Shown: positions 6,101 through 43,429 of the stretch, piece by piece
Layout: every line of letters starts with the position of its first letter
How positions within the stretch are numbered: position 1 is the stretch's first letter
NCBI GenBank assembly: GCA_031261175.1
Contig: JAISJW010000013.1
Span: 1 to 50,377 of the forward strand
DNA: 50,377 bases
Direction of reading: 5' to 3'
Origin: Lactobacillales bacterium
GTDB taxonomy: Bacteria; Bacillota; Bacilli; Lactobacillales; Streptococcaceae
Program-made: the position numbers and the translations under genes
Notes under the pieces: generated by a model
The model's input: only the letters and a program-made list of their open reading frames with translations
The model's database searches: none
What the model was told of the DNA's origin: nothing

Positions 6101-7028
6101 AGAGTCTCATATTTAGGATTTGGGCGTCTGGCGCTACCCCTTTATGATTGGCCGCTGTACCAGATGCGATCCCCGCAACGTGTGTCCCGTGAGAGTAGTT
6201 AGCTGACTGTGCGCCTGTTTCCCAACCATCAGTATCAGAAGTGTTAACATAGTTGTATTCGTAAGGAATTTTAGATGATTTGTAAGTCGCTGGGTGACCT
6301 AGGTTTTGCGTGTTGGTAGCCCAGTTGGTGTTTTTAGTGATCGCTAACGCCGACGAATCCATTGTCGCTGGATTAAAGTTTTCGTGGTTAGCTCGCACTC
6401 CGTCATCGATGATGGCGATGACTTGCCCACGCCCTGTTCCTGCAGCTGCAGTTGCCTCAGAAGTCGCAGCGTTTTTACCAGCTTCTTCAGCGTCGCCGCC
6501 TTCAAGTCGTTGGAAGTACGCATTGACACCAGTGTTTTCGAAGTGGTTGTCTTTTGCGATCGCTTCGACTTGGTCGTATTTAACCTCAACCGTCGCAGTG
6601 TTCACCAAATAAGCGCTTTGGTCGATAACCTTAGCACCGTATTTTTTGACCAAGCGGTTGATGTCGCCTTGCGCAGCTTTTTTGATATCTGCTTCGACGG
6701 CCGCAACTTTTGTAGCCGACGCGCTTTGCAACTTGTCACCAAGTTCGCTCGCCACCGTTTTATCGCCGAGATTGACGATCAACTCGACTTTCGCATTTTT
6801 GGCATCTTCAAGCAAGGCCGCCCGTTTAGTGTCGTCCTGCAAATCAGCAAGCTTCCCGTGCTTAGCCGCGTACTGTTCGATAATTCGTTGGTTCACCTTT
6901 TCGGGTTGATAAGCAACGTCCGTCTTTTCCACTTGCCCTTTGACAAATAAAAATGCCGACGCTACCGCGACAATAACAACCACTCCTATAGCTGCTTTGA
7001 TCGCAATCGCTTTTTGTTTGTAACTCAT
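171..7028 (-). CDS. Cell-wall-anchored subtilisin-family serine protease (LPSTGG)
   Basis: An extracellular S8 endopeptidase of 2,285 aa that resembles lactocepin/C5a-peptidase-type surface proteases. A hydrophobic signal segment lies at residues 8-30, followed by a propeptide-like region to about 190. The catalytic triad is readable: Asp208 (IIDDGV), His280 (SHGTHVAG), Ser475 (GTSMATP), with the oxyanion Asn389 (AAGNEG). Fn3-like modules follow (around 'VADGTYYYGVTATGDG'), then a long region of unknown repeats, and a C-terminal sorting signal: LPSTGG at about 2247, a hydrophobic stretch and a basic tail (YLRRR). I chose ATG 7028 rather than the upstream in-frame ATG 7091, because the promoter predicts transcription start near 7083 and a GGGGGA ribosome site precedes 7028. 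The gene is monocistronic between its own promoter and terminator. The substrate is unknown; peptide nutrition or host-protein cleavage are both possible. Confidence 0.9.
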   Translation of the reverse strand: MSYKQKAIAIKAAIGVVVIVAVASAFLFVKGQVEKTDVAYQPEKVNQRIIEQYAAKHGKLADLQDDTKRAALLEDAKNAKVELIVNLGDKTVASELGDKLQSASATKVAAVEADIKKAAQGDINRLVKKYGAKVIDQSAYLVNTATVEVKYDQVEAIAKDNHFENTGVNAYFQRLEGGDAEEAGKNAATSEATAAAGTGRGQVIAIIDDGVRANHENFNPATMDSSALAITKNTNWATNTQNLGHPATYKSSKIPYEYNYVNTSDTDGWETGAQSANYSHGTHVAGIASGTAANHKGVAPDAQILNMRLFDPANLEQSGGTNKIIAAIEDAVKLNADVINLSLGIAMFEKEDLAETYAELIADPYFANLYNTITTATAAGATVVAAAGNEGLVGAVNVPAAFDNVIAVGAANATTQVPCNFSSWRNAAFDNGHAKPDLLAKGQSVSSSVIGNNADSNGVGNSWPGTQYASKDGTSMATPAVSGAVAVYKELKPGKTTDSIKVALDNAATPSKTGDNYFSTREQGGGYIDLAKAVAAKTTLRGIDSQPLAYAAPYLGDSVTIQVVIKNEDAESVDYKWNNYGGVFSATQTPGTYTDDSTEGFKITDLGSSTLTKLADANVRLIANDVQNEPSLGGVDSVITVAAGESKTLTFQINTASTTEAAYTEGFIRFRPASVADASADLSIPFTAYKTATIQPLIPNTVNFNVGGLSGVVNPFISPGNSAAKDSLSINFKASSEGVTITKLGIYRSKNLTNPVFEKTDGAGIGALSTETATVLSWNGSNSGWTGSTYVADGTYYYGVTATGDGRTETKFYTVNVDQTAPHVNPGTFTEDSTGYIITLPITEVTNNLSYSTTNGSLRADIELNDIDSVENVIMDLDYNQNNNTNYLRLYVRKSSLSPTHEFTNVNHVTILSTTTDVKDNAGNVLEPVENVQFVSTTQQAEPGLPQAIMESITGDTSYTGGEVTYANNKITYHYKQVTQATKDAAKARKIKLKMITITSPATYAKNDHGADLEISQPVSVFSSLLNKLTFGLLGGHNNATKADEEVEEDLTPVMQTVSATVADGSINLGFVGHDVYRTLDIDEDASALDPDDKAYFDLDTMTGRTSETKVQLTATATGSPDWLKEFCSTANTQIGIKDYDGTTIPFGKVDKYIRPDTAGSQWTLITGPVSVAGDYKFQFRVKGVNGFEVSSPELYLTVTAQTSTLNFAYPTANNANDEMLGQMQAADPTFDPTNVAAIYRYAGVPAFNIANLFQATAMTDAVTSFTKAQAANLINTGNADSTYGKLTLSSPIDPEVYNTVQKRTLTYKNANGATQTKEIAILIVPAALTPEQKAAYNGTNATTLIINKLLFHQGLLETNSDGSKSFPTIVNDGNVLPLYDTSSFTRLGGAEFTVYHIEQRYYDITSPLAGEGASSRADSVHGLLVGDVVAIDLRDKLTNQAGTNIVNGIVTAEGAPLELSNADALEQISFEARTGRNNFKKRTPPTGRDDTNIYAVPLVTDGAFEYAATNSSAVSMINTALSPEGLFVSPDAKNSPGNTPNKVAPIQYYTNNSYGLSNLRLFNKVQPGTYNNSVQLTALGDKTLDSIYTGKNAVYLIMETGNSKDTTTPDNTGVLSGAQPIIISMPVYQTNEASATLGAQMNEVQLYPKDYDEPINKDIIADRSVGDIEADVNTEIFKRNVGAPVKYQVKFTVPLDIADRYTPTTGRFAGKSIPKYNQLSIADKPTAQLVLDNTVAPTITAPDGTVVQTYDMRDTVDGNGDSALRAREEFAKAPTGYADVTAKADPAKARQDLRTPLGLLGGDTVQSAQYRLFGGADSTGNVRSNLRVQLQKTTVNTTAAGSVGDNVNGVVESVLNNDSMTNIVSYNYDLINIKTGNSEVKAPALADYAYAGANQQAVYEADSIAYASKNNIDSEVNKAVAMADNLAKYAGRELTLNYTSYVTGYKPEVLLLQLTDGAFTGYHHQWGTPNNITITPIPDYKYKNVANYNLTRLGEQNIVKSDNGPFVTTFGKKFAKVDKGTGKMFANGATAQFKLLRYSKKLGIQYYAGGAADGKQNWTTITGKEGDSWNVGDSAADSNKTNATAITDVTAAEVRQLPTATVLTTGNRYNLGKGIPTALSDVYIDSTNIGSGELELVGLSGVADYVSTEPDNLQALTTGAEKVVYALVEQNKVDGYMLNNNFTIFHAEAGSYRNKETHDGIVEPASSATKYPEVNWLNHARNVDKLNDITYDDDYYIIENVPENELPSTGGHGIYWIIAIGIVLLASGTVYFYLRRRVSVEIVD

Positions 7029-7089
7029 CCTGTGTTCCCCCACATCTCTAACGGCAAATTCGCCGTAGTTTAGCATAATATATACAAAC

Positions 7090-7118
7090 ATTGTATAATA
7101 AATGTGGAAATTTCACAA
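7090..7118 (-). promoter_or_regulatory. Sigma-A-type promoter of the subtilisin gene
   Basis: The -35 box is TTGTGA (7113-7118), the spacer is 17 nt and the -10 box is TACAAT (7090-7095). The predicted start near 7083 excludes the upstream ATG at 7091 as translation start and gives a leader of about 55 nt. Confidence 0.7.
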
Positions 7119-7221
7119 TGATTTTACACTAAAACTTTTCACAAATTCTTCACACAAAAAAACGCCTTAAAATCGGCGCTTTTTCGGTGTTTTCTATTGA
7201 CATTTGGCGTTTTAAAAGTCT

Positions 7222-7296
7222 CTACTGTTTTTTAACGCGTTTTTTAGTGCTTTCGACCCTCGAAACCCCTAAAAAAGGCCTTAAAACACAGTAAGG
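7222..7296. repeat. Dispersed ~75-bp palindrome, copy A (imperfect)
   Basis: Arms CTACTGTTTTTTAACGC and GGCCTTAAAACACAGTAAGG flank inner TTTTTTAG/CCTAAAAAA blocks. It belongs to the family also found at 8876, 23406, 26691, 35277 and 43397. It sits just behind the ABC-F stop codon and may act as a terminator. No gene is visible in 7120-7300. Confidence 0.7.
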
Positions 7297-8953: not shown

Positions 8954-11900
8954 TTAAATCGCCATTGTTGAGAAGCTACGAGCTTCTAAAACGCGTAAAA
9001 TTGCATCAGCAGTATCAAGCGACGTGAATAATGGCACTCCACGTTCAACTGCGGCGCGGCGGATGTTGCGACCGTCGTTTTCTTCAGTGCGTTTGCGGCT
9101 CATCGTATTGATCACAACGCAGGCATGGCCCGTGTTGATCGCACCGATGATATTCGCTGGATCCATTTCGTCACCAGCTTCACCGATTTTGTTGACCGTA
9201 TCGACATACAGGCCAGCCTCGCGGAACAAATCAGCCGTTCCTTCAGTCGCAAGTAACGAATAGCCGATTTCGTTAAACCGTTTAGCGAGTTCCAAAGCTT
9301 CGTCTTTCGTTTCATCAGCAATCGTGAACAGGATGCGACCGTATTTCGGCATGTGGAAGTTGCTCGCTTCGAACGCTTTATACAAAGCTTTCTCAAGCGT
9401 AACGTCACTACCCATCGCTTCACCCGTCGATTTCATTTCAGGGCCTAAGTACGTGTCGACTTTTTGCAGTTTCGTGAACGAGAAGACAGGAGCCTTAACA
9501 TGCACGCGACTAGGCGTCGGCGCTAAACCACCTTTGTAGCCCTGTTCGGCAAGTGTTTCGCCTAAAATACATTTCGTCGCAACGTCAGCCATCGGAATAT
9601 CCGTAATCTTCGACAAGAACGGCGCCGTCCGTGATGCGCGCGGATTCACTTCAATCACGTAAACCTTATCTTCGTGAATAACGAACTGCACATTCATCAT
9701 CCCGATACAATTCAAGCCCAAGGCAAGTCGAGTCGTATAGTCTTCGATTGTTTTAATAATTTCATCGCTGAAAGTTTGCGGCGGATAAACCGCCATCGAG
9801 TCACCCGAGTGAACTCCGGCGCGTTCGATGTGTTCCATAATTCCCGGAATCAAAACATCTTTTCCGTCACAAATCGCATCGACTTCACACTCGCGACCAA
9901 GCAAGTAACGGTCGACAAGAACGGGATGGTCGGGACTTGCCTTCACGGCAGTTCGCATGTAGCTTTCCAGGTCTTTTTGGTTTTCGACGATTTCCATCGC
10001 GCGTCCACCCAAGACGTACGACGGGCGGACAAGGACCGGATAGCCGAGGCGGTTGGCAATTACGACCGCTTCCTCTTCCGACACCGCAGTGGCACCTGGA
10101 GGTTGAGGTACTTCGAGCTGATTCAAGGCTTGCTCGAACAAGTCGCGGTTTTCAGCGCGGTCAAGGTCTTCGATTGAAGTTCCCAAGATTTTCACACCTT
10201 GTTTAGTCAATGGTTCAGCGAGGTTGATCGCCGTTTGGCCACCGAATTGCACGATAACGCCCTTAGGTTGTTCAAGGTCGATGACATTCATTACGTCTTC
10301 AAGCGTCAACGGCTCGAAGTAAAGTTTATCAGAAATCGAGAAGTCAGTCGAAACCGTTTCCGGATTTGAGTTCATGATGATGGCTTCGTAGCCAGCTTCT
10401 TGGATGGCTTTCACCGAGTGCACCGTCGCGTAGTCGAACTCGACCCCTTGCCCGATGCGGATTGGGCCTGAACCGAGAACTAAGACACTCTCTTTTCCGG
10501 AGCGAATCGACTCGTTTTCCCACTCGTAGGTCGAGTAGAAATACGGCGTGTGACTCTCAAATTCAGCCGCGCAAGTGTCGACCATCTTGTAAACCGGAAT
10601 AATTCCGTTGTCGTGGCGCGCTGCCGAGATTTCACCCGCTGTGCGGTTCCATAGATCGGCAATTTTGCGGTCCGAGAATCCGTTTTGTTTAGCGTATTTA
10701 AGCACTTCGACTGAATCGACGTTTTGGGCCAATTCTTGTTCGATTTCGAAGATGTGAACTAGTTTATCTAAGAAGAATAAATCGATTTTAGTTAGGTCAT
10801 GTAACTTTTCAACCGACCAACCGCGGCGGATTGCTTCGCTTAGATAGAACAGGCGGTCATCTTGAGCTTTAACGATTTTGAATGTTAATTCTTCTTCGTC
10901 AGCATCTTTTAATTCTTTAATTTCGTTGTGGTAAACACCGATTTCAAGCGAGCGAACAGCTTTGAGTAATGACTCTTCGATGTTGCGGCCAATCGCCATA
11001 ACTTCCCCAGTAGCCTTCATTTGCGTACCTAGGAAACGGTCGCCGTTTTCAAATTTATCGAACGGCCAACGCGGAATTTTAGCGACAACGTAGTCTAAAG
11101 CTGGTTCAAACTCAGCGTAAGTAGTGCCTGTTACCGGGTTGATCATTTCATCCAATGTTAAACCAACCGCAATTTTCGCAGCGAGTTTAGCGATCGGGTA
11201 ACCTGTCGCTTTACTTGCCAAGGCTGACGAGCGTGAAACACGCGGGTTCACTTCGATAACGTAATAGTTAAACGAGTTAGGATCCAAGGCTAGTTGAACG
11301 TTACATCCACCTTCGATTTTCAGCGCGCGGATGATGTCTAATGACGCATCGCGCAACATTTGATATTCGTAGTCGCTCAAAGTTTGCGACGGCGCGAACA
11401 CGATTGAGTCACCGGTGTGAATCCCAACCGGATCGAAGTTTTCCATGTTACAAACCACGATTGCGTTATCCGCCGAGTCGCGCATAACTTCGTATTCGAC
11501 TTCTTTGAAGCCGGCGATTGAACGCTCGATTAGACATTGTGTAACCGGCGAAAGTTTCAAACCGTTTTCCGAAATCAAACGAAGTTCTTCTTCGTTGTCA
11601 CACATCCCGCCGCCGGTACCGCCCAAAGTGAACGCCGGACGAACGATCAATGGATAGCCGATCGTGTTCGCAAACTCGACAGCCTCTTCAACGGTATTTA
11701 CGATTTCAGATTCCGGAATCGGTTGATTCAAATCTTCCATCAATTTCTTGAATAAATCGCGGTCCTCAGCTTGGTCGATCGCCGACAGCTTAGTCCCCAA
11801 TAATTCAATATTTAACTCTTCTAAAATCCCCGATTTGGCAAGTTGCATCGCCATATTCAGACCAGTTTGTCCTCCCAATGTCGGCACGATTGCTTCCGGG

Positions 11901-19918: not shown

Positions 19919-19978
19919 ATAAAAAGATACCTAGGCCAATGCCGTGTCGGCAGCGCTACCTAGATATCTTTTTTGTTG
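19919..19978 (+). ncRNA. Candidate ~60-nt small RNA / bidirectional terminator
   Basis: The predicted transcript begins near 19919 and is almost entirely a hairpin. A 15-bp stem with one mismatch (19921-19935 and 19959-19973) encloses TGCC-GTGTC-GGCA (19940-19952), and TTTTTTG follows. The same hairpin, read on the minus strand, terminates the nuclease-like gene ending at 19980. A dedicated promoter in front of a bare hairpin is what makes an RNA gene plausible. I do not recognise a known RNA family. Confidence 0.45.
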
Positions 19979-19979
19979 T

Positions 19980-20366
19980 TTAGAAAACGTTTCTCTCGAT
20001 AATCATTATTACCGGAATTCCTTCACGCACCTGCACCCACTTTATTGTCGCGATTATTTCTTTGTGACAATGCGAATTTTCGCTGATGTCAATAATGATG
20101 TTTCCGGATTGAACGGCCGCTTTTCGCAATACCTTGTCTACATTTTTAGGCTTTCCCGTGAACTTTTTCAGTTCCCAATCTTCACGTGCACCATTCCTAA
20201 ACCACCAATAGTCACTGGTCGGAACATCCCGGATTTCATTGCGATGTATAATTCTACCGCCAAACGTTTTGATCAAGAAATGCGCCACCTGAATTTCGTG
20301 TTCAGATGGCATTTTTTTATGCCTATGATGCGGTTCGAAATCTTCAAACCCGATTGACCTATCCAT
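19980..20366 (-). CDS. CdiA-CT-like PD-(D/E)XK nuclease toxin domain protein
   Basis: A 128-aa protein that matches my recollection of the tRNA-nuclease domain at the C terminus of CdiA toxins and of some phage/ICE proteins. Motif pattern: SEHEIQVAHFL helix, TSDYWW with Asp52, DWELKK with Glu65 and Lys67, then NVDKVLRKAAVQSGNIIIDIS. Here it is a stand-alone gene with a short charged N-terminus and no signal peptide. It starts at the base after the stop codon of the upstream 55-aa gene (TAGATG), so it is translated as the last gene of the EssC-like operon. No separate immunity gene is obvious. It could be an exported effector, an intracellular nuclease, or a remnant. Confidence 0.65.
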   Translation of the reverse strand: MDRSIGFEDFEPHHRHKKMPSEHEIQVAHFLIKTFGGRIIHRNEIRDVPTSDYWWFRNGAREDWELKKFTGKPKNVDKVLRKAAVQSGNIIIDISENSHCHKEIIATIKWVQVREGIPVIMIIERNVF

Positions 20367-20534
20367 CTAGTGCAATTCTAACTTTTTCGTGTGGCATTTG
20401 GGGCATTTTCTTTTGTGAGCCCTAAAAAAATTGTGGCAATTGCGGCAAAGCCGCACGGCGTCTTCACGCTTCGGGCGCAACCTGAACGCAAGAGCAATAT
20501 TAATCGCGATACTCAACAAACAAATGACTAGCAT
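20367..20534 (-). CDS. 55-aa membrane-anchored zinc-ribbon protein
   Basis: A small gene that would be missed by a 60-aa cutoff. The start codon ATG 20534 lies inside the preceding EsaB-like gene (35-nt overlap), and its TAG is directly followed by the ATG of the nuclease gene. Residues 2-17 form one membrane helix (LVICLLSIAINIALAF). It is followed by a basic linker and a four-cysteine ribbon: CRNC at 30-33 and CPKC at 44-47. An N-terminal anchor with a cytosolic zinc knuckle suggests a small adaptor. I know no named family for it. Confidence 0.7.
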   Translation of the reverse strand: MLVICLLSIAINIALAFRLRPKREDAVRLCRNCHNFFRAHKRKCPKCHTKKLELH

Positions 20535-20712
20535 TTTGCACCCCCTGATCCTTCAACGTTTTATCGTTCGCAAGCGCTTGACCCCTGAATTTCAGCGCCT
20601 TGATCGCCTTTTGCAAATAATCTTCGAGCAACTCCGCAAGTTCTTTGACCTCAGCGAACGCGCAAAATCGGCACTCGAACTTCGTGTCTTTCGTTTCAAT
20701 ATTTAATCTCAT
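20500..20712 (-). CDS. EsaB/YukD-like ubiquitin-fold protein
   Basis: A 70-aa protein with the layout of the small ubiquitin-like T7SS component EsaB/YukD: an N-terminal beta strand, a helix around 22-42 (VKELAELLEDYLQKAIK) and a C-terminal LANDKTLKDQGVQNASHLFV, matching the '.L.D.GI.NGD.L.V' ending of ubiquitin folds. Two cysteines (14 and 17) are unusual. It overlaps the EssC-like gene by 4 nt (ATGA), the same partner pairing found in type VIIb secretion loci. I see no WXG100, EsaA, EssA or EssB gene nearby. The assignment is by pattern, so moderate. Confidence 0.6.
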   Translation of the reverse strand: MRLNIETKDTKFECRFCAFAEVKELAELLEDYLQKAIKALKFRGQALANDKTLKDQGVQNASHLFVEYRD

Positions 20713-23324
20713 TTTTTATTCCTCCCTTTGTAAATTATCCTATTTTTTTGATAGATTAATTCGCTTTTTTTATAGCCATAAGTCGGCTGATTATTCCTGA
20801 TAAAAAATTGTTCGTCGTAATCTTCGCCACTTATTCCAATTTTATTCAGATCGCTATCGTAATTAATTTCGTTAGCTTTTTTTATTTCGATTTTTTCTGT
20901 TATTTTTTCGAGCGTATTTATATCGACCGGATAGTCGAAATCGCTCGCTTTGCGCGTGCGTTCAAAGCGGGCAAGTAGTCCCTCGCTGACTGATAAATCT
21001 TTGAATTCTCCGTCATACATAACCGGCAGTTCGCCGGTGTAGCGCGCACCGCAAAAATCTAAAATTTTATTCTGGTCTGTATCGTCAAAAATTAATTTTA
21101 AATCACACAAATTAATTAACGAATAAATTATTTTATCCATTATATAAATTATTTTTTTATTAGTTTTTAATTCTAAATCATATATTTTATCGATGACAAT
21201 AATCACATCATCTTCTAAATCAAAAGCGCGCGCGATATCTTCTTCATCGCTTGTCCTATCTAGCTTAACGGCGCGTTTGCCTTCTAAATATCGATTAATA
21301 AACATCTCACCCTCTCCTAAAATTCCAATAAATTTATATCGCTCAAAATCATCTTCATATTGTCGCACGTTTTTAATATCATCAATTAAAGCAACTGAAT
21401 TAATTTTAGGATTTTTCGGTAATTTTTTACACCATAATTCGCGCGGCGGCGCGCCCTGCACTTGCCCGAATAATTTTTCTTTATGCGTCATCGAATCCCG
21501 AGTGATCGTCCGCACTACTTCCCCCTGAACCCCCAGGATATCTAGCGCCTTGTCATCCACCGGCACATTCAAATCGAGCGCGCGATTCTCGAACAAATAA
21601 TCATCGTAGCCGACAAGCATCATAAATTCGCCCGGCCGTTTGAAACGAATACACTTATCCGTATTCACCATTTCGCGACTCTCACTCGCATCGTTCACCT
21701 TAAAACAAATCTTCGTTTTCGCATTGCTCAAAATCTGATCCGACACGATGGCGCCCGGCTTCTGCGTCGACAAAATCAAGTGAATCCCGAGACTCCGCCC
21801 CACGCGCGCCATACTAACTAAGGCATCGAGGAATTCCGGCGTTTTGGCCGCCATCTGCGCGAACTCATCAACGACTACAAATAAATGTGGTAAATAATTC
21901 CGCTCTCGCTCTCGCTTTTCGATTTCTTTTTCCAAAGCAAATCGCACTCGCTCTACATCCTGCTTTTTCAAATCGGTCATCGCTCCAACGAGATTTCGCA
22001 CCCCCTCAAAGCGCGAACTCAACTCGCCACCCTTGTAATCGACAATCACAAATTGCGCAATTTCCGGAGGATAATAATTAGCCAACATCAGCAAATAATT
22101 AGCGAGAAATTCGCTCTTTCCACTCCCCGTCGTCCCCGCAATCAGGGCGTGCGGGCCAAAAGCGTTCTCGTGCAAATCTAGCATAAAACCCGGGGCAATT
22201 GGCACTTCAAGCTGATGCGTCGCTAATCCCTCAATTTTTTCGAGCATTTTTTCTTCTTCTAGATTAGCCAACTTCTCCGCTAGTTCTTCGTCTAACTTCT
22301 CGTCTGGTAATCTTTGAAACGACTTTTGCGTATTTTCTAACAAATCAAACAAAATAGGATTATCTCGAAAATCAGCAATTAAATTAATATTATGATTTAT
22401 ATCACTCATTTTTTCTGCAAAATAAATCACTCGAATATTATCAGGATTTTCGATCAAAACCTTCTCAATAAAATCGCTTTTTAAATTAGCAAAAATAATA
22501 TAATCAATAGCTAAATCACGCGATAATAATATTTTATCGAGTTTTTTTATTTGCTCAGAATTAAAAGCTACCATCCGAAAATCGCCGTCATACAAATGCG
22601 GAAAATCCTTAACCATTTCAACATCCATTCCATACAACGCAACTCGCACATTCTCCGGTGAATAGTTGGCAATTACTTGAATCATTAACGCTTCAAACAG
22701 ACCGCTTGACCCCAACACCGCAAAACTTCGACCAACCACAATCGGCGCATCTTCGAGTACAACTGGCGACCCGATAAGTTCTTGATATTTTAGCAGCAAA
22801 TCGCTATTTTCGCAGACGAAATCAGCACCTTCGGTTACATCAAATTGAACCTTAGCAGCTACTGTTCCTCGGCCGATTTCCAATTTCAAATAATCCTCAT
22901 GCCCCGGCTTTTTCTCGAACAATTTGCGATTCATTTCCAACACTCGGCGTTTCAAAACTTCTAGCGACGGATACCGATTTAGATAAATATTTTTTTCGCT
23001 ATTTTTGCGCACCTTCAAATCATTAATTTTCCGATTTAAATACTCGATATATTTTTCCCGTAAAATTCGATTTTTTCGTAGCGTATTTTTCTTCCCGATA
23101 AAATCAAACAACAACGGCGTAGCAATCGTCGACCCCAACATTACTAAACTAAACAAGATATTAGTCGTAAAAGAATACATCGCAAAACTCAATCCCATCA
23201 AAATATTCGGAATTAAATTCAACTTATCAAACTTTTCACTCTCGACTAGTCGCGGCGGCTGATCTAGCCGAATCGGCCGCAAATCAAACTTTTCTACAAA
23301 ACGCGGCGTCACATTAAACTTCAT
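20709..23324 (-). CDS. EssC/EccC-like FtsK-SpoIIIE ATPase, short form
   Basis: An 871-aa membrane ATPase. Two membrane helices lie at about 37-75, followed by a coiled basic region and a degenerate domain similar to the EssC D0 region (150-340). One intact FtsK/SpoIIIE domain carries Walker A GTTGSGKS (397-404), VDYKGGE and Walker B FVVVDEF (Asp486-Glu487). The surrounding LDLHENAFGPHALIAG and the LILSTQKP motif are typical of EssC/EccC. A second ATPase-like domain (about 640 on) has no Walker A. Family EssC proteins are about 1,480 aa with N-terminal FHA domains and three or four ATPase domains, so this is a reduced version. The DNA is visibly A+T-richer than its neighbours, suggesting acquisition. 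GGAGG precedes ATG 23324. Confidence 0.8.
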   Translation of the reverse strand: MKFNVTPRFVEKFDLRPIRLDQPPRLVESEKFDKLNLIPNILMGLSFAMYSFTTNILFSLVMLGSTIATPLLFDFIGKKNTLRKNRILREKYIEYLNRKINDLKVRKNSEKNIYLNRYPSLEVLKRRVLEMNRKLFEKKPGHEDYLKLEIGRGTVAAKVQFDVTEGADFVCENSDLLLKYQELIGSPVVLEDAPIVVGRSFAVLGSSGLFEALMIQVIANYSPENVRVALYGMDVEMVKDFPHLYDGDFRMVAFNSEQIKKLDKILLSRDLAIDYIIFANLKSDFIEKVLIENPDNIRVIYFAEKMSDINHNINLIADFRDNPILFDLLENTQKSFQRLPDEKLDEELAEKLANLEEEKMLEKIEGLATHQLEVPIAPGFMLDLHENAFGPHALIAGTTGSGKSEFLANYLLMLANYYPPEIAQFVIVDYKGGELSSRFEGVRNLVGAMTDLKKQDVERVRFALEKEIEKRERERNYLPHLFVVVDEFAQMAAKTPEFLDALVSMARVGRSLGIHLILSTQKPGAIVSDQILSNAKTKICFKVNDASESREMVNTDKCIRFKRPGEFMMLVGYDDYLFENRALDLNVPVDDKALDILGVQGEVVRTITRDSMTHKEKLFGQVQGAPPRELWCKKLPKNPKINSVALIDDIKNVRQYEDDFERYKFIGILGEGEMFINRYLEGKRAVKLDRTSDEEDIARAFDLEDDVIIVIDKIYDLELKTNKKIIYIMDKIIYSLINLCDLKLIFDDTDQNKILDFCGARYTGELPVMYDGEFKDLSVSEGLLARFERTRKASDFDYPVDINTLEKITEKIEIKKANEINYDSDLNKIGISGEDYDEQFFIRNNQPTYGYKKSELIYQKNRIIYKGRNKK

Positions 23325-23340
23325 ATTTTTTACCTCCTTA

Positions 23341-23400: not shown

Positions 23401-23405
23401 TTTTT

Positions 23406-23482
23406 CCTTACTGTTTTTTAAGGCGTTTTTTAGGACTTTCGCCCCTCGAAATCACTAAAAAACGCCTTAAAAAACAGTAAGG
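23406..23482. repeat. Dispersed palindrome, copy C (perfect 28-bp arms)
   Basis: Arms 23406-23433 and 23455-23482 are perfectly complementary over 28 bp with a 21-nt loop. The outer ends are CCTTACTG and CAGTAAGG. It lies directly upstream of the ECF-like promoter, exactly as copy D does at the toxin locus. Confidence 0.85.
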
Positions 23483-23494
23483 ATTTTTAACCAC

Positions 23495-26690: not shown

Positions 26691-26766
26691 CTTACTGTTT
26701 TTTAACGGCTTTTTTAGGAGTTTCAGACCTCGAAACTCCTAAAAAACGCCTTAAAACGCATCAGGA
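26691..26766. repeat. Dispersed palindrome, copy D
   Basis: The left arm begins CTTACTGTTTTTTAACGG and the core is TTAGGAGTTTC-AGACC-TCGAAACTCCTAA. The right arm has decayed to ACGCATCAGG. It aligns with copy C through the whole element and on into the promoter. Confidence 0.8.
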
Positions 26767-27212: not shown

Positions 27213-30200
27213 CTAAGGGTTAATTGAAAGCGTCCATTCGACCGTTGTTATATACTTGCCGGAATGAGGAATCAAAGTTCGCTCAGGAATCTGCAGGTAC
27301 ATAGCGTTGGTCGTCGGAATCGCAGACAAATCAGCAGCTCGCACAACTTTCGACACGCTGTCATCCACTTCCTTGTGACCAATAAGTCCGGAAGAAATAT
27401 TGCTTCGCTTCGTAATATCGCTCGGCTTACCGAACACAACACTAGAATATTTACCCGTCAAATTGTTATTGGCGATCGGATTTTCCTCTAGGTTATTCTG
27501 CCATAGAATCTCCTCGTCAGTCAGCTCGCGATAAACCGCGTAGAAATCTGTCGGCGCGGTGATCGGCGTGTGCGCGAAGTCAAACTTCACTGGGGCAAGT
27601 TGAGCCGGGGTATCACCAACTGCAGGCGTTATAACCTTGAACCACCCCTCAAATACTTCATACTCGTTGTAGTGCGGAATCGCAGCTTGGGCATTGGCGC
27701 CATCAACCACGTCGGCACTTGCAACTTCGTTGTAAACTACCGGATTCGTGTGCGTTCCGATAAAGAAGCGCACGTGATGCCGCACGATGTCGCCCATCTT
27801 CGCGTAAAGCGTGATTGGCCCTTCGACCGGCGTGCTAAAGTCGTACGGATCTCCGCTGAAATCTTTATCCAAGTACCAACCTAAGAACTCGTGATTGATG
27901 TCATTAAAGGCAGGACCCGGATGGGTTAAATTACTACCATAGAAAACATCTTCGTCTTCAATCGGCACTACCTGACCGCTAACCTGTTTGGTCGCTTGCG
28001 TTTCATCCGCAAATTTATACTGCACCGGATAGCTCAGTAACGTCCATTTCGCATAAACACTCGTAACCTGGCTGGCCGAATAAATCCACTGTCCATAGTA
28101 GTTGGTGAAGCCAGCAATGTTAGTGCGTGGGGCAAGTCCCGTCAACCCGAACAAGCGAGTTGACTCGTCACCGTTTTGAACAGTTGTCCATCCGGCAAAT
28201 TCGTGGCCGACCCATTCTGGATTGTGCGTTCCCGCACTTCCAGGGATCGAATCGTAAACCTCGGTTTGAGAGGTTGGCACTCCGTCCGGTTGGTTTCCAG
28301 CAGGCGCCCCGTTCAAATCAAAGTTTAACGTATATTGATTAGGCGTCCACACTGCTTCAATCGTTATCGGATCTGTGATTATTGTATTGAAATCAAACGG
28401 CAGTTGCTTACCATATTCACGCCAACCGGCGAAAGTGTAACCAGTTCGAGTGGGTCTTTCAATTTCTAGTGGTTCCTGAGCTTTCGAAGCTCCGTTATCT
28501 TGAATATCTTGGTAAGCTTTATCTGCACCGTTGAACTGACCGCCTGTATAGTCGAATGTCACTCGGACCGTCGCACCCTCACTCCATTTAGCATAAAGCG
28601 GGATGTCAGCGTCAAGCTCGACGGGACTTGCCTGAACAAACAGAGTGTTAAATCCTGGATCGGCATACCAACCTTTGAAGTGATGTCCTAGGTAAGACGG
28701 CTCAGGAAGGGCTGCGAAATTAAACGTTTCGCCCTGGTAAACAATTTGATTATTTACCCCGGTTCCTTCGTTAAGATTGACTTGAACGATGTGGTACCAA
28801 ATCGCGTAATAATTTCCGGCTGCTGTGATCGGCGTGCTATTTGAAACAGGAGTGTGCCCTCCCGGTGTCGCTGACCAACCACCGAAGTGCCAATTGCCAT
28901 TGGCCGGAGTCTGTGGTTCCACATCACTTAGCGTTTCGCCGTAAGTCGCAACGGTATCATAAGTAACATCGCTAAGCGTGTCGTTAAACTTAAGCGCATA
29001 GGTATCCGGTGCCCACTGAGCATAAAGGTCTAACCCGTTCATACCGCTACTAAAGGTCGTCTCGAAATCAGGTCCTGTCGGAGTAGGCGCCTTCCAACCG
29101 ATTACGTGATAGCCCGTGCGGTTAAACGCTGGGTTATTAGGCGTCGAAGCGTGGCTGCCAATCAACGTATTGTCATCCGTCACAACCGTGTCCGTTCCGA
29201 AATTAGTGTGATATTTGACCGCAATCGGAGCCGGCACGCCGCCCCAACGAGCGTAAAGCGTTTCGTGCTTCGTAGCCATCGTGACTGGTACATCACCTGC
29301 GAGTGGATCTGCGAACCAGCCGAGGAACTCTTTCCCTTCGGGGTGAACCGGTGTAGGCAATTGTCGTCCGTCATAGAAATAATGATATGTCGGAGCAGGA
29401 GCATCGACGTAGTTGTCATCTAATTGAACGCGCCACTCCGTTTTCGCACCTTCTTCAGCAGTCCAAGTATACCATCGAACGTGGAATTCGGTATTTCCAG
29501 TTACCGTATATCCATCAGCCGCCCTTAAATCTATAAGTGTATTATAATCTGCATCTGCATAAAATTCGCCATCGACCCACATAACCGAATCATCATCGTC
29601 AACGGTGCTACCCTCATTCATATACGCCATTAACCAATAATATGGATCGCCATTTTCCGCTGCCTTCATAACTGTACCTATCTGTACATCAACACTATCA
29701 AGTAGATAATCCCACTCAGTAAAGTGTTCGCCAAATGCAGCAGCATCTGCGTACGTGAACAAGCTTAGATGTGCCATCGGTGTAGCAAACTTAGCGTAAA
29801 GCGTAATATCGTGAGTTATCGGAGTCTCAGGATTAAATAAGTGCTCATTCAAGAAGTCAGGATTAGTATACCAACCTTCAAATGTAGCGTAAGGATTTCC
29901 TTCCATAGCAGCAGTATGTGCTGTTAAATCAATCGTATCGCCATACCAAGCCGTATCTGGTAATATAGGAACAGCAAAAGGAGTATTATTCCCGGTCGTC
30001 GTGTCATAAGTAATGTTCGCATACACGTGACCATAGACACGAGTTACACTATCCTCTGGACTATAATCTCCATCAAAATCATGAGGGTTATCAATAAATA
30101 ACCAATTTTCATCGACTACAGAATCCGCTGGGATAGCTGGACTTTCATGATCATCTGGATCAAGCGTCCACTTGCCAAAGTGCAGATTATCACTTGCTAT

Positions 30201-33200
30201 CTCTGCCGCAAAACTATCTCTACCATGCTGACCAACAGAGTCGAACGTATCGCCATACTCAACGTCCAGATAACCTCCAATTCCTCCGTCTATATCCAAC
30301 AATGAGAAGTCGATATAAATCAAATCGATCTGCCAAACTGCATATAGGTTTATGTTATTATTTGTAAATCTAAACGTTTGATCTAAACCGAACTTCCACA
30401 TTTCCAAATCATTGTTCGGCATTGTTGACCAATATACCAGGTGTTTATGTTCTGGTGGCGTGATACCTAAATCAGCAATATCTTCATTCGCCGCCGGAGT
30501 CGCTCCAACGCTTGTTGTCACCTGCTTATATTGCATTCCATCAGAGCTGTGATAGGTCACCGTGATCGTATTATCACCCCAACGGGCATAAAGTATTTCG
30601 TGAGCTCTAGCCTTATCTAAGAGTTGTTCTGGATCTCCGCCATCGCCCCAACCACGGAATTGTGTCTCATTATCAGGATCGTAATTCGGATCAGGTAAAT
30701 CTTCGCCATCAACTACATAGTAATCCGTAGTCTCATAGTTAAATTCAACTAATCTAACTTGCCAAACGGTGTCGCTCGCCGCATTAACCCACTTAGCGTG
30801 CAAATCGAAGTTTCTGGTGATTACATCATCACCCTCTACGGACTCTTCATAAGATTTATCGTAATACCAACCTGCAAAAGTATAAGTTTTCGCACCGTCG
30901 GTCAAAGTACCGCTAGTAGGCAAGTCAAGATCGGAAATAAGTGTTCCAACCGCTGTATCTATGCCATTATAATTTATGGATTGATCAGTTCCCCATGTGA
31001 TATTATAGGCCCCGCCATAAGCATGCACCCCAATATGCGCATTAACTGGTTCTGGATCAGAGCCTTCTTTCAATTCCCATTTCGCATATATGGTCGTATT
31101 TTCAGTTATCGGTGTATCTTGATTGAACGCACTCGTTCCTTCGCTATTATTGAACCAACCTAGCCAATCTGCCACATTTGTCAGATTAACATTCGACTGC
31201 ATAAGCGACGTAAATGATGTCAAATCAATCGTATCTCCGTACCAAATTTGTTGAACAGGTATTGGTGTTTGAAGTGCCGGATAATAAATGCCTTCATATG
31301 TTTTATGTTCAGGATCGTATGTAGGATTTCCAGTTGTTGTATTTAAGGTTACAATACCCTTCCAGTTAGCGTAGAATTCTTCTTCACCCTGGATTGCGTA
31401 GTTCGAACTTACAGTATCATCGTGATTTCCAGTACCGCTAAATGTCCACGCTCCAAAGCTTAGACTAGGCTCGCTAAACTCTAAATCATCAATATTATTA
31501 GCTATTTTAAGTTGCGCGAAAGTTTGACCGTATTCTACGGTAACAACTGTATCCTCTCTACCTGGAAGCGTACTTTTGAACGTTACGTTTACTTGGTTTG
31601 CATCCCAGTTGGCATATAAATCTAAACCTCCTGAAACATCACCTTGTTCTAAGACGCGGTCAAATGCGTTTTTATTAGCCGCATCCGTTGTCCATGGCAT
31701 ATCTACATTCAAATGATGATGAGCGTATGCCGTTTGATACGGTTGGTCAACGTTATCCCCAACGTGGTGGTATACCTCCGTCTGAACGCTGCCCGCTCCA
31801 TCATAATTATGGTATCTAACCGTAACTGCAGAAGCCGCTGGTTGCGCCCCCTCAGAGACCCACTGTGCATAGAGTTTAGTATGTCCGTAGAATCCAATGC
31901 TAGGGTTAACTATCACCCCGCCATCAGGTGCCACAGTCCAACCAACAAAATCATAACCACTTCTAGTTGGATTGGCAATTGTCGTGCTTTCACCCGAAGC
32001 TGAATAAATTGGATCAATTTCTGCTGCACCTTCGTAATTGGCATTTAGCATAATTTGCCAAACGGTTTTATTATCTTTTGCCGGATCAACCCACTTCGCG
32101 TGGTATTCGAGAACGCTCTCATCAATTCCTGTTAGTTGTATACCCGTAATTTTTGTAGAATAATTTTTATCTTTAAACCACCCCTCAAAGACGTAAGATT
32201 CATTGTATGGTTCCGCTGGCAAGTCGATTGCATATGGAATCGGATACGAAGCATTATTAATTGTCGAATTCGAAGGTCCCCCACCGTAAAGGTATTCACT
32301 AACGAATACAGAATTATTAATTGTGTTATCGACAGCTATTGTTTCTTCCTCTTGTACTGAACTAGGATTCATCGCTAGCGAGTTAGAAATGTACTGCGTT
32401 CCATCTTTTAAGTCGACAACTAATCTGATTGCATATCCACTAGCATAGTCATCTAAATCATTCCCCGATTTATAAGTGAACGTTGTAGGCATTGCATCTG
32501 TTTCAATTACACCGGTATTAGCAACACCTTCTAATGTATCTTTTCCGTAAAAGAAACTTTCTTCGTTATGCCAAGCGACTTCTAAATCGCCATTATCGTG
32601 GGCTTCATAGCCATCCCAAAATTCAACGTGAACTTTTTCGACTTCATCTGCTGTAAATGCGTAATTAAGCGATCCCGGGACATTTATTACTTCTACGTTG
32701 GTTGTAACTTTATCTCCCGAAACAGTTTCACTTGTTTTATTGATATTAAAGCCGTTACTGTGCTCAGCTTGTCCATTATTTCGATTTACAACAGGATTAT
32801 AAGTTAAGACGTTTGAAATAGGATGAGTGCTATCCGAGAACAATTGAACTTTGAATCCATTCGCTTTAGCTCTTTTTACATATCTATTATCGACCTCTTG
32901 TGCACCAAATATTCTTTGAGCCGTCGCCACTCCTAGCTCTGTTTGTCTATTAGGCAACGACCACTGAGGTGTTGCATTTTTTGTTTTGACAGGCACGCCA
33001 TTTTCAAAGTTATCCCCCCAATTTCCATAAGGTATATATGAGTCAAGCTCCTCATCGTACATAAACATAGAGTATAAACCGGGATTATCTGCTGGACTCT
33101 TATTGGATCCGTTAGTATTCGAAGTCGGTAGATCAGCATCTACATATTCCTGTTCCTCGGGATCAAATTTATAAAATTGAATAGCGTTAGTAGGCTGTTT

Positions 33201-35054
33201 ATATATATTCTCTAATAGCGTAAATGCGTAAGTAGTATTAGATACAAATGCCATGTCAGCACTGTAGTTTGAATAATCAGGAATTTTATCAAAATTTCCT
33301 TTTGCTGCATCACAAAGACTACACGCTAATTGAAATAAATCATCCACACTTGCATCCTGCGATGGAGTTATGTCCAGATAAGCTTCACAAGCTTCAGAAA
33401 AACTGTATCCTAAGCCAACAAAAAAGTTTGTAACATCTATAAAATATTTTTCTTTGTAATTACTTAGAATAGTCGGCGTTACAAACATATTCTGTAGCGC
33501 TGCATTGGAAAAGCCTATTTTACCAATCAAGTCTAACGTATCATAATTTAACTCCGCAGCTCCGTTAATCGACCCCGATCTAATCGCGTTGCCGGCCGGT
33601 ACATTTGTCGCATCCGGGATTATCCATTGATATCCGTCCCAATATCTAAAATATTGAGCACCTGTTATTATTTGATCACCTTTTGTAACATCAAAAGCAA
33701 ATGACCAGTTGCTATTTAGTTTAAATGGGTCAATTAACTTCGTACCCAGATTAACCTCGTTAAAATTAGCGGAAGATTGTTGAACCGCTCTTCTATTTGC
33801 ATTTAACGTATTCAAGCTTATATCACGACTTGGTGAAGGAACAATCACGATTGTATCTGTCGATGTATCACCATCCCAAGTTCGGTTATCGTAACCTGCC
33901 ATTGCTAGTGGTTTTTCTCCCGTTTCAGGTTCTGGTGTTCCGCCATTTGAGCCGAGCAGTTGCGCACCTGACTTGCCCAAACCAAGGAGCGAAGCGACCT
34001 TGGCCACCGCTGTTTTCACAAGCGATCCAGCCGATTCGAGCAGGTTGAACGAAGACGTGTGAGTCTGAGCGACTACGCTGGGGTCAGTGCGTTCAACCTT
34101 GTAGCGCATATAGTGTTCCCTGACGTAAGGCCAAAGCAAGTTGTGGTCGTCCGAAACGCCTGGAATCGTGATTCGATCATTAACCGCAGGTTGGAATACA
34201 CCTGCTAGCGAGTAGCCGTGAGGGATTTCAATTTCCACAGTGTTGTTGTTATCGTCAATCTTAGCTGTGTAGCTGTAGCTGCCTTGCCAAGAAAGCTGAG
34301 CGACGAAACTGAAATCTCCAGTCCCTGGATCAATTGTACCGTAGCCATCTTCTTCGGTCCAAATCGGTTGGTTGGTCAGAACGTTGACGCCGGTTTCACT
34401 TTGCAGACCAGTTGCGCTATCGTGAACCAACACACTCTTGATTAATTTAACAGCCATCCCAGCAGTATCACTTACGAACAGTTGATGCTCCTTCATGTAA
34501 ATTTGAGCTGCTTGGATCGAGTCCTCTTCGATCTTTTGCCCACCCTCGTATCTCGTGAACCCTCCGGGAATTTCGCGAGCGTTGAGCGACCAAGGTGTCG
34601 AATCCCCCGAGTAATCGAGCACTTGCGCAAACGGCGGAGTGTACGCAGTTGGCGTAGCGATCGGATCGGCTTGCGCATCGGGACTTGCCCAAAGACCCGT
34701 GTAGAGGGTCGGGATTTGGATGGTTTTGTGGAGGTAGCGCAACACGGTGCGGTTTTGGAACACGAAATTCGGGACGAATTGCATGTAGACTTGGCCGGTC
34801 TCGACATTTTCGATGTACGGGCGCGGGAAGATTGGCACGTAGCCGTTGACGCCGACCGAATCGTCTTCGGAACCGTTCGAGCCTGAACCCGGCAGAATCA
34901 CGTCGTCGTTGACGATTTCGAGGTTGACCTCGCCTTCCGTTTGCGCTCTCGAACTATCCGTGTAGGTGTAGTTGGCAGCACTTGCCGAACTCGCAGCTAT
35001 TAGCGCGGTGAACGCTATGGTTGTTAGAATCGTATATTTTAGAAGTTTATTCAT
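27213..35054 (-). CDS. Giant secreted InlB-repeat surface protein with WxL-like ends
   Basis: A 2,613-aa protein with a signal peptide (NKLLKYTILTTIAFTALIAASSASA). From about 940 to 2,510 I count some 20 degenerate InlB/Listeria-Bacteroides-type repeats, each ending in YAxW or close variants (LYAKW, FYANW, LYARW, LYAQW). There is no LPXTG. Instead the C-terminus reads YITTVEWTLSINP, like the last strand of a WxL cell-wall-binding domain. Near the N-terminus VPNFVFQ and TPWSL resemble the first half of such a domain. ATG 35054 is used because GAGAGAGGG precedes it and overlaps the earlier in-frame ATG's codons. It is monocistronic. It is likely an adhesin, by inference. The middle (about 31.1-33.9 kb) is visibly A+T-richer than the rest. 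Confidence 0.85.
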   Translation of the reverse strand: MNKLLKYTILTTIAFTALIAASSASAANYTYTDSSRAQTEGEVNLEIVNDDVILPGSGSNGSEDDSVGVNGYVPIFPRPYIENVETGQVYMQFVPNFVFQNRTVLRYLHKTIQIPTLYTGLWASPDAQADPIATPTAYTPPFAQVLDYSGDSTPWSLNAREIPGGFTRYEGGQKIEEDSIQAAQIYMKEHQLFVSDTAGMAVKLIKSVLVHDSATGLQSETGVNVLTNQPIWTEEDGYGTIDPGTGDFSFVAQLSWQGSYSYTAKIDDNNNTVEIEIPHGYSLAGVFQPAVNDRITIPGVSDDHNLLWPYVREHYMRYKVERTDPSVVAQTHTSSFNLLESAGSLVKTAVAKVASLLGLGKSGAQLLGSNGGTPEPETGEKPLAMAGYDNRTWDGDTSTDTIVIVPSPSRDISLNTLNANRRAVQQSSANFNEVNLGTKLIDPFKLNSNWSFAFDVTKGDQIITGAQYFRYWDGYQWIIPDATNVPAGNAIRSGSINGAAELNYDTLDLIGKIGFSNAALQNMFVTPTILSNYKEKYFIDVTNFFVGLGYSFSEACEAYLDITPSQDASVDDLFQLACSLCDAAKGNFDKIPDYSNYSADMAFVSNTTYAFTLLENIYKQPTNAIQFYKFDPEEQEYVDADLPTSNTNGSNKSPADNPGLYSMFMYDEELDSYIPYGNWGDNFENGVPVKTKNATPQWSLPNRQTELGVATAQRIFGAQEVDNRYVKRAKANGFKVQLFSDSTHPISNVLTYNPVVNRNNGQAEHSNGFNINKTSETVSGDKVTTNVEVINVPGSLNYAFTADEVEKVHVEFWDGYEAHDNGDLEVAWHNEESFFYGKDTLEGVANTGVIETDAMPTTFTYKSGNDLDDYASGYAIRLVVDLKDGTQYISNSLAMNPSSVQEEETIAVDNTINNSVFVSEYLYGGGPSNSTINNASYPIPYAIDLPAEPYNESYVFEGWFKDKNYSTKITGIQLTGIDESVLEYHAKWVDPAKDNKTVWQIMLNANYEGAAEIDPIYSASGESTTIANPTRSGYDFVGWTVAPDGGVIVNPSIGFYGHTKLYAQWVSEGAQPAASAVTVRYHNYDGAGSVQTEVYHHVGDNVDQPYQTAYAHHHLNVDMPWTTDAANKNAFDRVLEQGDVSGGLDLYANWDANQVNVTFKSTLPGREDTVVTVEYGQTFAQLKIANNIDDLEFSEPSLSFGAWTFSGTGNHDDTVSSNYAIQGEEEFYANWKGIVTLNTTTGNPTYDPEHKTYEGIYYPALQTPIPVQQIWYGDTIDLTSFTSLMQSNVNLTNVADWLGWFNNSEGTSAFNQDTPITENTTIYAKWELKEGSDPEPVNAHIGVHAYGGAYNITWGTDQSINYNGIDTAVGTLISDLDLPTSGTLTDGAKTYTFAGWYYDKSYEESVEGDDVITRNFDLHAKWVNAASDTVWQVRLVEFNYETTDYYVVDGEDLPDPNYDPDNETQFRGWGDGGDPEQLLDKARAHEILYARWGDNTITVTYHSSDGMQYKQVTTSVGATPAANEDIADLGITPPEHKHLVYWSTMPNNDLEMWKFGLDQTFRFTNNNINLYAVWQIDLIYIDFSLLDIDGGIGGYLDVEYGDTFDSVGQHGRDSFAAEIASDNLHFGKWTLDPDDHESPAIPADSVVDENWLFIDNPHDFDGDYSPEDSVTRVYGHVYANITYDTTTGNNTPFAVPILPDTAWYGDTIDLTAHTAAMEGNPYATFEGWYTNPDFLNEHLFNPETPITHDITLYAKFATPMAHLSLFTYADAAAFGEHFTEWDYLLDSVDVQIGTVMKAAENGDPYYWLMAYMNEGSTVDDDDSVMWVDGEFYADADYNTLIDLRAADGYTVTGNTEFHVRWYTWTAEEGAKTEWRVQLDDNYVDAPAPTYHYFYDGRQLPTPVHPEGKEFLGWFADPLAGDVPVTMATKHETLYARWGGVPAPIAVKYHTNFGTDTVVTDDNTLIGSHASTPNNPAFNRTGYHVIGWKAPTPTGPDFETTFSSGMNGLDLYAQWAPDTYALKFNDTLSDVTYDTVATYGETLSDVEPQTPANGNWHFGGWSATPGGHTPVSNSTPITAAGNYYAIWYHIVQVNLNEGTGVNNQIVYQGETFNFAALPEPSYLGHHFKGWYADPGFNTLFVQASPVELDADIPLYAKWSEGATVRVTFDYTGGQFNGADKAYQDIQDNGASKAQEPLEIERPTRTGYTFAGWREYGKQLPFDFNTIITDPITIEAVWTPNQYTLNFDLNGAPAGNQPDGVPTSQTEVYDSIPGSAGTHNPEWVGHEFAGWTTVQNGDESTRLFGLTGLAPRTNIAGFTNYYGQWIYSASQVTSVYAKWTLLSYPVQYKFADETQATKQVSGQVVPIEDEDVFYGSNLTHPGPAFNDINHEFLGWYLDKDFSGDPYDFSTPVEGPITLYAKMGDIVRHHVRFFIGTHTNPVVYNEVASADVVDGANAQAAIPHYNEYEVFEGWFKVITPAVGDTPAQLAPVKFDFAHTPITAPTDFYAVYRELTDEEILWQNNLEENPIANNNLTGKYSSVVFGKPSDITKRSNISSGLIGHKEVDDSVSKVVRAADLSAIPTTNAMYLQIPERTLIPHSGKYITTVEWTLSINP

Positions 35055-35092
35055 AATAGATAAGCCCTCTCTCAATGGTTTCATATACTTTT

Positions 35093-35276: not shown

Positions 35277-35352
35277 CCCTACTGTTTTTTAGGGCGTTTT
35301 TTAGTGATTTCGAGGTCTGAAAGTCCTAAAAAAGGCGTTAAAAAACAGTAAG
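35277..35352. repeat. Dispersed palindrome, copy E
   Basis: Outer ends are CCCTACTGTTTTTTAGGGCG and GGCGTTAAAAAACAGTAAG, with an inner TTAGTGATTTCGAGG loop region as in copy C. It lies between the recG terminator and the giant surface gene. Confidence 0.8.
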
Positions 35353-43396: not shown

Positions 43397-43429
43397 TTTT
43401 AGGAGTTTCGAGGCTCGAAACTCCTAAAA
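43397..43429. repeat. Dispersed palindrome, copy F (core only)
   Basis: A perfect 16-bp inverted repeat with a 1-nt centre (TTTTAGGAGTTTCGAG and its complement), equal to the core of the longer family copies. It sits between convergent genes and probably helps to terminate gltD. Confidence 0.8.

Follow-up and report, generated by a model that had tools for sequence, protein, structure and literature searches.

The window analysed here, a 50,377-nt stretch of a Lactobacillales genome (contig JAISJW010000013.1 of assembly GCA_031261175.1), contains a compact four-gene operon that encodes an EssC-like membrane ATPase, a YukD/EsaB-like protein, a small protein with zinc-ribbon-like cysteine pairs, and a stand-alone CdiA_C-type nuclease. 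We put at about even the chance that this operon supplies the motor of a reduced and very divergent type VII-like exporter with dispersed parts, the nuclease acting as a toxin or a toxin tip. The EssC/EccC ATPases described in PMC11217815 and PMC9436818 carry several stacked ATPase domains, the individual roles of which are still argued. In the ATPase of the window operon the membrane region, D0, and D1 of EssC/EccC are present and the further NTPase domains D2 and D3 are not.

An EssC-like ATPase with a single ATPase domain

The ATPase matches the EssC model TIGR03928 with an E-value of 1e-91 and 308 bits (cut-off 778 bits), and 871 open codons with such a match are not a product of chance. 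Its N-terminus starts at the 'SPRI' linker of EssC, just past the FHA region, and FHA domains are absent as judged by Pfam and by alignment of the start of the protein. Local alignment with hhalign, using profiles of 25 EssC-type proteins (12 for D3), indicated that residues 1-361 correspond to the EssC membrane/D0 region (E 2e-21) and residues 380-576 to D1 (E 2e-58), with the Walker A motif GTTGSGKS at position 397 and the Walker B motif VVVDEF at position 483. Residues 580-871 matched neither D2 (probability 0.6%, with 10 shuffles reaching up to 0.5%) nor D3 (0.4%, with 10 shuffles reaching up to 0.7%). An earlier reading of this DNA, made from the letters alone (the sequence-only reading), had described an ATPase reduced to one intact ATPase domain and lacking FHA domains. 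The reduction is borne out and FHA is indeed missing, but that absence is not unusual, as the ATPases of the type VII secretion systems (T7SSs) T7SSc, T7SSg, and T7SSh have no FHA either (PMC11217815); the real anomaly is the missing D2/D3. The T7SSc-j ATPases have four NTPase domains according to a 2024 survey (Garrett et al. 2024, PMC11217815). A degenerate D2 in the C-terminus, suggested by a forced MAFFT alignment, was not supported by the profile test and was dropped. The literature titles and abstract openings searched mention no EssC with a single ATPase domain, which is not proof of absence. No second EssC-like ATPase was found in the genome with PF01580, the other matches being FtsK (an 882-aa frame) and a 20-bit match to a TadA-like gene.

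D1 keeps 46 of the 61 columns that are strictly invariant in 25 EssC-type proteins and has lost the other 15. In leave-one-out controls, the 25 themselves each retain between 61/61 and 61/67 invariant columns (0 to 6 lost). Approximately 20-30 residues ahead of Walker B (the NI..Y segment), present in six EssC-type proteins aligned beside D1, are also gone. All 13 of the conserved columns in or beside Walker A and B, the limits of these motifs being of our choosing, are nevertheless kept (P 0.015 if losses were random); with a laxer set D1 keeps 50/70 columns (20 lost), among them the Walker columns (P 0.0075).

These losses bring in the alternative that the operon is a non-functional, decaying type VII remnant whose motor has lost D2, D3, and many D1 residues and exports nothing, the small genes riding along. 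We regard this as unlikely, since the reading frame is open over 871 codons, both Walker motifs are intact, the operon is tight and has good ribosome-binding-like sites, the nuclease retains its core columns, and the C-terminus of the ATPase has been replaced rather than merely cut. For decay speak the eroded D1 columns, the loss of the NI..Y segment, the long branch of the protein in the D1 tree, the lack of EssB and EssA in the genome and of an ortholog in the genomes drawn (all detailed below), and the failure of C-terminally truncated Staphylococcus aureus EssC to secrete (PMC9436818). Walker columns kept amid other losses point more to an ATPase that still works, though with changed partners, than to simple decay, and are also compatible with relaxed constraint.

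Layout of the operon and its smaller genes

The four minus-strand open reading frames (19980..23324) are confirmed as an operon with the coding order ATPase, 70-aa protein, 55-aa protein, nuclease. Their coordinates agree with the packing reported in the sequence-only reading: the ATPase and 70-aa genes overlap by 4 nt, the 70-aa and 55-aa genes overlap by 35 nt, and the 55-aa and nuclease genes meet in a TAGATG stop-start junction. Ribosome-binding-like sequences (AAGGAGG, GGGAGG, and GGGGG) lie upstream of the first three starts; none lies upstream of the nuclease start, which fits coupling of the nuclease to the preceding gene. The A+T-richness noticed earlier is likewise real, as the G+C content of the operon is 40.2% compared with 48.4% and 48.5% in its two 5-kb flanks. 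Only 20 of 941 operon-length segments (taken in steps of 50) have a G+C content as low or lower, and the lowest starts near 20200 and largely overlaps the operon. Codon usage deviates as well, the relative codon adaptation index being 0.51-0.65 for the operon genes and 0.64-0.75 for 14 window genes, a comparison biased in favour of those 14 because the reference was built from them.

The 70-aa protein matches YukD (PF08817) with 18.1 bits and an E-value of 0.0048, below the cut-off of 27, and by hhalign with a probability of 14% (highest of 20 shuffles, 5.9%). A ubiquitin-like TsxB is to be expected in all T7SSs except T7SSd. Of the ATPase/EsaB pair of type VIIb secretion that had been claimed, the EssC-type ATPase stands, the YukD/EsaB match is weaker than described, and we do not assign the pair to type VIIb (T7SSb). 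In the 55-aa protein a single hydrophobic segment at the N-terminus (residues 1-21) is followed by two CxxC pairs (Cys 30, 33, 44, and 47), in keeping with its earlier description as a membrane zinc ribbon, although its zinc-ribbon matches in Pfam are all sub-threshold (best HypA, E 4e-4). For neither protein did searches of plasmids (tblastn, E 1) and viral contigs return a relative.

The nuclease scores 24.3 bits against CdiA_C (PF18451; E 3.5e-5), just under the cut-off of 26.6, and keeps 7 of 7 invariant columns in an alignment of seven CdiA_C sequences that includes the nuclease itself. It is, as had been claimed, a bare CdiA-CT-like domain with its core columns, with a Pfam match weaker than described. 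A sequence search of the PDB found nothing, and no match was obtained in plasmids or viral contigs. Four records of phages, one phage being represented twice, match the nuclease at 32-33% (E 0.002-0.007), and two of these are annotated as minor head protein. Among 395 genomes of the order, CdiA_C was found in 9, the present one included. We read eight of the loci concerned (L073-L080, 3.2 kb each; L082 was not read). In L073-L076 the domain ends phage-type proteins (the one checked being Phage_Mu_F), in L078 it forms one protein with an LXG domain, in L077 it occupies a separate frame after LXG, in L079 it stands by eye behind LysM-like repeats, and in L080 it lies in a short 101-aa frame in which the family match contains a stop. 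In none of them did we notice an FtsK-type ATPase. The window nuclease resembles CdiA_C toxin tips in its conserved core columns and differs from them in being encoded separately, as 128 aa, downstream of an ATPase gene; short CdiA_C frames do exist elsewhere in the order.

Two further explanations turn on this arrangement. According to one, two unrelated units are joined here, an EssC-like/YukD-like pair and a toxin-antitoxin-like pair (the 55-aa zinc ribbon and the nuclease) acquired behind it and using its promoter. We consider this quite unlikely: the TAGATG coupling of the 55-aa gene to a nuclease gene with no ribosome-binding-like site of its own, the inverted repeat immediately past the nuclease, and the want of plasmid or viral relatives of the 70-aa and 55-aa proteins would agree with it, but the 35-nt overlap of the 55-aa and yukD-like genes argues for one old operon and the G+C content is low across all four genes (39-45%). 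According to the other, an EssC-like ATPase has left secretion and now works in a cell-autonomous membrane ATPase/nuclease unit, for example in defence against phage or plasmid DNA. FtsK/HerA-type ATPases paired with nucleases occur in defence systems, a nuclease does share the operon, and D1 has lost EssC-conserved residues while those that bind ATP stay. The PADLOC models mad8, SspH, and HerA match the ATPase, but they cover the P-loop ATPase domain alone and reach 83 bits compared with 308 for the EssC model; the three smaller proteins have no PADLOC match, no defence gene set is matched, and CdiA_C in the order accompanies LXG proteins and phage head proteins. We therefore hold this explanation to be very unlikely, and the self-contained defence system offered by the sequence-only reading finds no positive support.

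Relatives and origin of the ATPase

The sequence-only reading had proposed looking for all four genes in order across genomes. In overlapping draws of 59 relatives, 395 genomes of the order, 368 of the phylum, and 378 of the class we found no ortholog of the ATPase, so that conservation of the operon cannot be shown. Among the 59 relatives, 57 have a match at E 1e-3, in the form of EssC-size frames, incomplete copies, or FtsK-like frames. Matches were obtained in 64 of the 395 genomes of the order (E 1e-30) and in 15 of the 368 of the phylum and 64 of the 378 of the class at E 1e-25, own genome included each time and with at most two candidates scored per genome. Apart from the self-match, all matches listed in these three draws lie within residues 352-593, and none of those listed spans the whole ATPase or reaches its C-terminus. 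Searches further afield gave one remote 28% relative in Chitinophagales (genome contigs), a single locus (L099) with a matching protein of more than 1000 aa among the 80 viral-contig loci retained out of 244 (searched with the ATPase/EssC alignment), and 116 plasmid records, none covering 80% of the ATPase; the two plasmid loci read carry full-size EssC.

The best D1 match outside the genome (50%, 173 bits; phylum draw) is in genome G514. Its locus L179 encodes YukD (PF08817), a DUF5050 protein (PF16472), an ATPase of 1302 aa that lacks FHA and has three P-loops, and a pair of WXG100 proteins (one below cut-off), which is the layout described for T7SSg in PMC11217815; the genes preceding it look Tad-like by eye alone, and two have no Pfam match. 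In a D1 tree of 27 rows the window ATPase sits on a branch of 3.81 (median 0.13). Grouping it with T7SSb, with T7SSg, or with the T7SSc rows plus G493 gave p-AU values (approximately unbiased test) of 0.36, 0.38, and 0.45, respectively, so that none is rejected; the groups were named after an earlier D1 tree had been seen. The D1 trees do not resolve the origin of the ATPase, and descent as a T7SSb remnant is neither shown nor rejected by them.

Other type VII- and Tad-like loci in the genome

The assembly (1.70 Mb, 33 contigs, 96% complete, 0% contamination), of which the window is contig C9 (1-50377), was searched for further type VII parts. EssB (PF10140) was not found at E 1; the single EssA (PF10661) match reaches 14.7 bits (E 0.02; cut-off 24.1). 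The sole match to EsaA, at 58 bits against a cut-off of 122, is a 594-aa protein beside a gene that by eye is TetR-like; it looks like a generic YhgE/Pip protein and was rejected as EsaA. The earlier statement that EsaA, EssA, and EssB are missing thus extends to the genome, whereas the statement that WXG100 is missing holds for the window only: two tandem WXG100-like genes lie on contig C15 (57728-58184). They match TIGR03930 (E 1.3e-5) and NF035934 (E 5.9e-9), all below the curated cut-offs. The YxxxD/E motif is a signal, and near the end of the second protein a YFDTE stretch resembles it. A form of the motif is given in PMC10730906. Weak WXG100 matches on contigs C12 and C3 were set aside, as they lie in ABC-transporter-like and coiled-coil-like proteins.

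The C15 pair is followed by a 374-aa Mbeg1-like hydrolase (PF11187 E 1.4e-15) that by eye has a GHSKG motif and a helical-looking C-terminus, by a 94-aa coiled-coil-like protein, and by an FHA protein (PF00498 E 2.3e-12) in which the GR, SxxH, and NG residues that have a role in FHA domains are recognisable by eye. A PDB sequence search with the hydrolase found nothing, and of 395 genomes of the order searched with the FHA protein, the 1 that matched was its own. DUF6382, suspected by eye as the N-terminus of the FHA protein, was unsupported by Pfam there; the DUF6382 that was found sits on contig C26, behind a Tad-like cluster (Table 1). Two low-G+C (42%) genes lie near the C15 cluster (L042 788-1597 and 12333-13022), one with a sub-threshold match to the endonuclease-like PF18741 (E 2e-7) and the other without a Pfam match.

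Table 1 Features of the window operon and of related loci in the genome.
Feature	Coordinates	Strand	Basis or remark
EssC-like membrane ATPase, 871 aa	20709..23324	minus	profile matches and Walker motifs
YukD/EsaB-like (ubiquitin-fold) protein, 70 aa, weak match	20500..20712	minus	PF08817 below cut-off; hhalign
55-aa protein, hydrophobic segment and zinc-ribbon-like CxxC pairs	20367..20534	minus	hydropathy, cysteines, sub-threshold Pfam
Stand-alone CdiA_C-type nuclease domain, 128 aa	19980..20366	minus	PF18451 and conserved columns
Inverted repeat with A/T runs, candidate terminator	19921..19973		directly past nuclease stop codon; not listed by consensus scan
Palindrome, 37-nt arms, upstream of operon	23405..23483		belongs to dispersed intergenic repeat family
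C15 run: WXG100-like pair, Mbeg1-like hydrolase, coiled-coil-like protein, FHA protein	L042 9427-12191		tightly packed
C26 Tad-like cluster: TadZ-like receiver protein, TadA-like ATPase, Flp1-like pilin, prepilin peptidase, then DUF6382 gene	L210 7251-11462

The genes around the operon look by eye like Bacillota housekeeping genes. A CcpA-like regulator in the window has as its best match among solved structures 2o20, a Lactococcus lactis protein, which makes a place in Lactobacillales likely. Two very large genes appear by eye to encode surface proteins (171-7091, 2306 aa with an LPSTG tail; 27213-35084, 2623 aa with repeats). The palindrome upstream of the operon is probably not specific to it, because it is a member of a dispersed family of approximately 80 nt (TACTGTTTTTTAAGGCGTTTTTTAG...TTTCGAG and complement). 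Copies in the window lie at 7153-7282, 23405-23483, 26700-26756, 35280-35350, and 43397-43429, and three other stretches of the genome have matches (L042 15340; L072 12658; L210 2545, 5166, and 11533-11581). The 14-nt palindrome arm, with at most one mismatch, has 8 matches in the window compared with 0.1 expected. An Rfam search of the window gave no match.

Discussion

We do not assign the operon to a T7SSb, because EssB, EssA, EsaA, and FHA were not found, nor to a full T7SS, because D2/D3 are absent. Like the T7SSb (EssC/EsaB/EssA/EssB/EsaA/EsxA), it has an EssC-type membrane ATPase adjoining a YukD/EsaB-like protein; unlike it, the ATPase is without FHA and D2/D3, and EssB, EssA, and full-size EsaA were not found in the genome. 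The likeness to T7SSg (PMC11217815), as in L179 of G514, extends to an FHA-less ATPase, a YukD-like TsgB, and two WXG100 proteins, kinds of parts that the present genome has on two contigs, with YukD weak; reverse lipases and adjacent Tad genes are reported for T7SSg, and the genome has a hydrolase and Tad-like genes. It differs in that the L179 TsgC, at 1302 aa, has P-loops in D1, D2, and D3 and in that the L179 genes form one locus, whereas here the parts are on separate contigs; the DUF5050 propeller TsgL of L179 is not in the window operon (the operon alone was searched for it, not the genome). The same survey describes DUF6382-FHA proteins in T7SSe, f, and j, a TadZ-like-domain protein in T7SSf, T7SSg/h adjoining Tad genes, reverse lipases at T7SSe and T7SSg loci, and, for a T7SSi locus, an endonuclease toxin related to CdiA (PMC11217815). 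In its layout the C15 run recalls the TslA-TlaA1-TlaA2 lipase effector of S. aureus (PMC10730906), with an N-terminal alpha/beta hydrolase, a C-terminus that looks helical by eye, and two WXG100-like partners; it differs in that its hydrolase is Mbeg1-like, its partners precede the hydrolase gene, and no tilA-like lipoprotein gene was noticed.

Among the three readings that the sequence-only reading had offered, a reduced T7SS fits best, although it is not clear that the operon is a remnant of the order's own T7SSb, given that EssB and EssA were not found, that the sole EsaA-type match is YhgE/Pip-like, and that the D1 tree does not settle the origin (p-AU 0.36 for grouping with T7SSb, so not rejected either); a minimal toxin-export module is possible solely with parts from elsewhere in the genome. 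We suggest that the TsxC-like ATPase and the TsxB/YukD-like protein may make up the motor of a type VII-like system that is both reduced and dispersed. Export across the membrane would be powered by one D1 ring, and the function of FHA would have moved to a separate protein. The C15 WXG100-like pair and hydrolase would then be cargo, the hydrolase perhaps a TslA-type 'reverse' effector, and the C-terminal ~290 residues of the ATPase, unrelated to D2/D3, might take over their part in assembly or in recognising cargo. For the CdiA_C nuclease we can envisage the role of a further toxin, or of a toxin tip that has no carrier protein; the 55-aa zinc-ribbon protein might then confer immunity to it or anchor it. 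That all of this amounts to a working type VII-like exporter running on a single ATPase ring, with the ~290-residue C-terminus replacing D2/D3 and receiving cargo and with FHA, WXG100, effector, and Tad-like parts spread over three loci, is possible but doubtful.

Several observations weigh against an exporter of this kind. The C9, C15, and C26 loci are on different contigs and are tied by their shared presence in one genome alone, from which we infer their functional link, as we do export and any function. The YukD-like and WXG100-like matches fall below their curated cut-offs, the FHA protein matched none but its own among 395 genomes of the order, and the ATPase is without an ortholog in the draws. 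In S. aureus, secretion fails when EssC is deprived of D3 or of D2-D3, and assembly requires D2 (PMC9436818). The 15 lost D1 columns and the long branch may reflect either relaxed constraint or a changed job.

If the proposal is correct, this natural D1-only motor with its foreign C-terminus would reveal what export truly requires of the motor and, for a motor lacking D3, the site of cargo recognition. Type VII parts would then also be known to occur scattered over a genome, where searches based on gene clusters overlook them.

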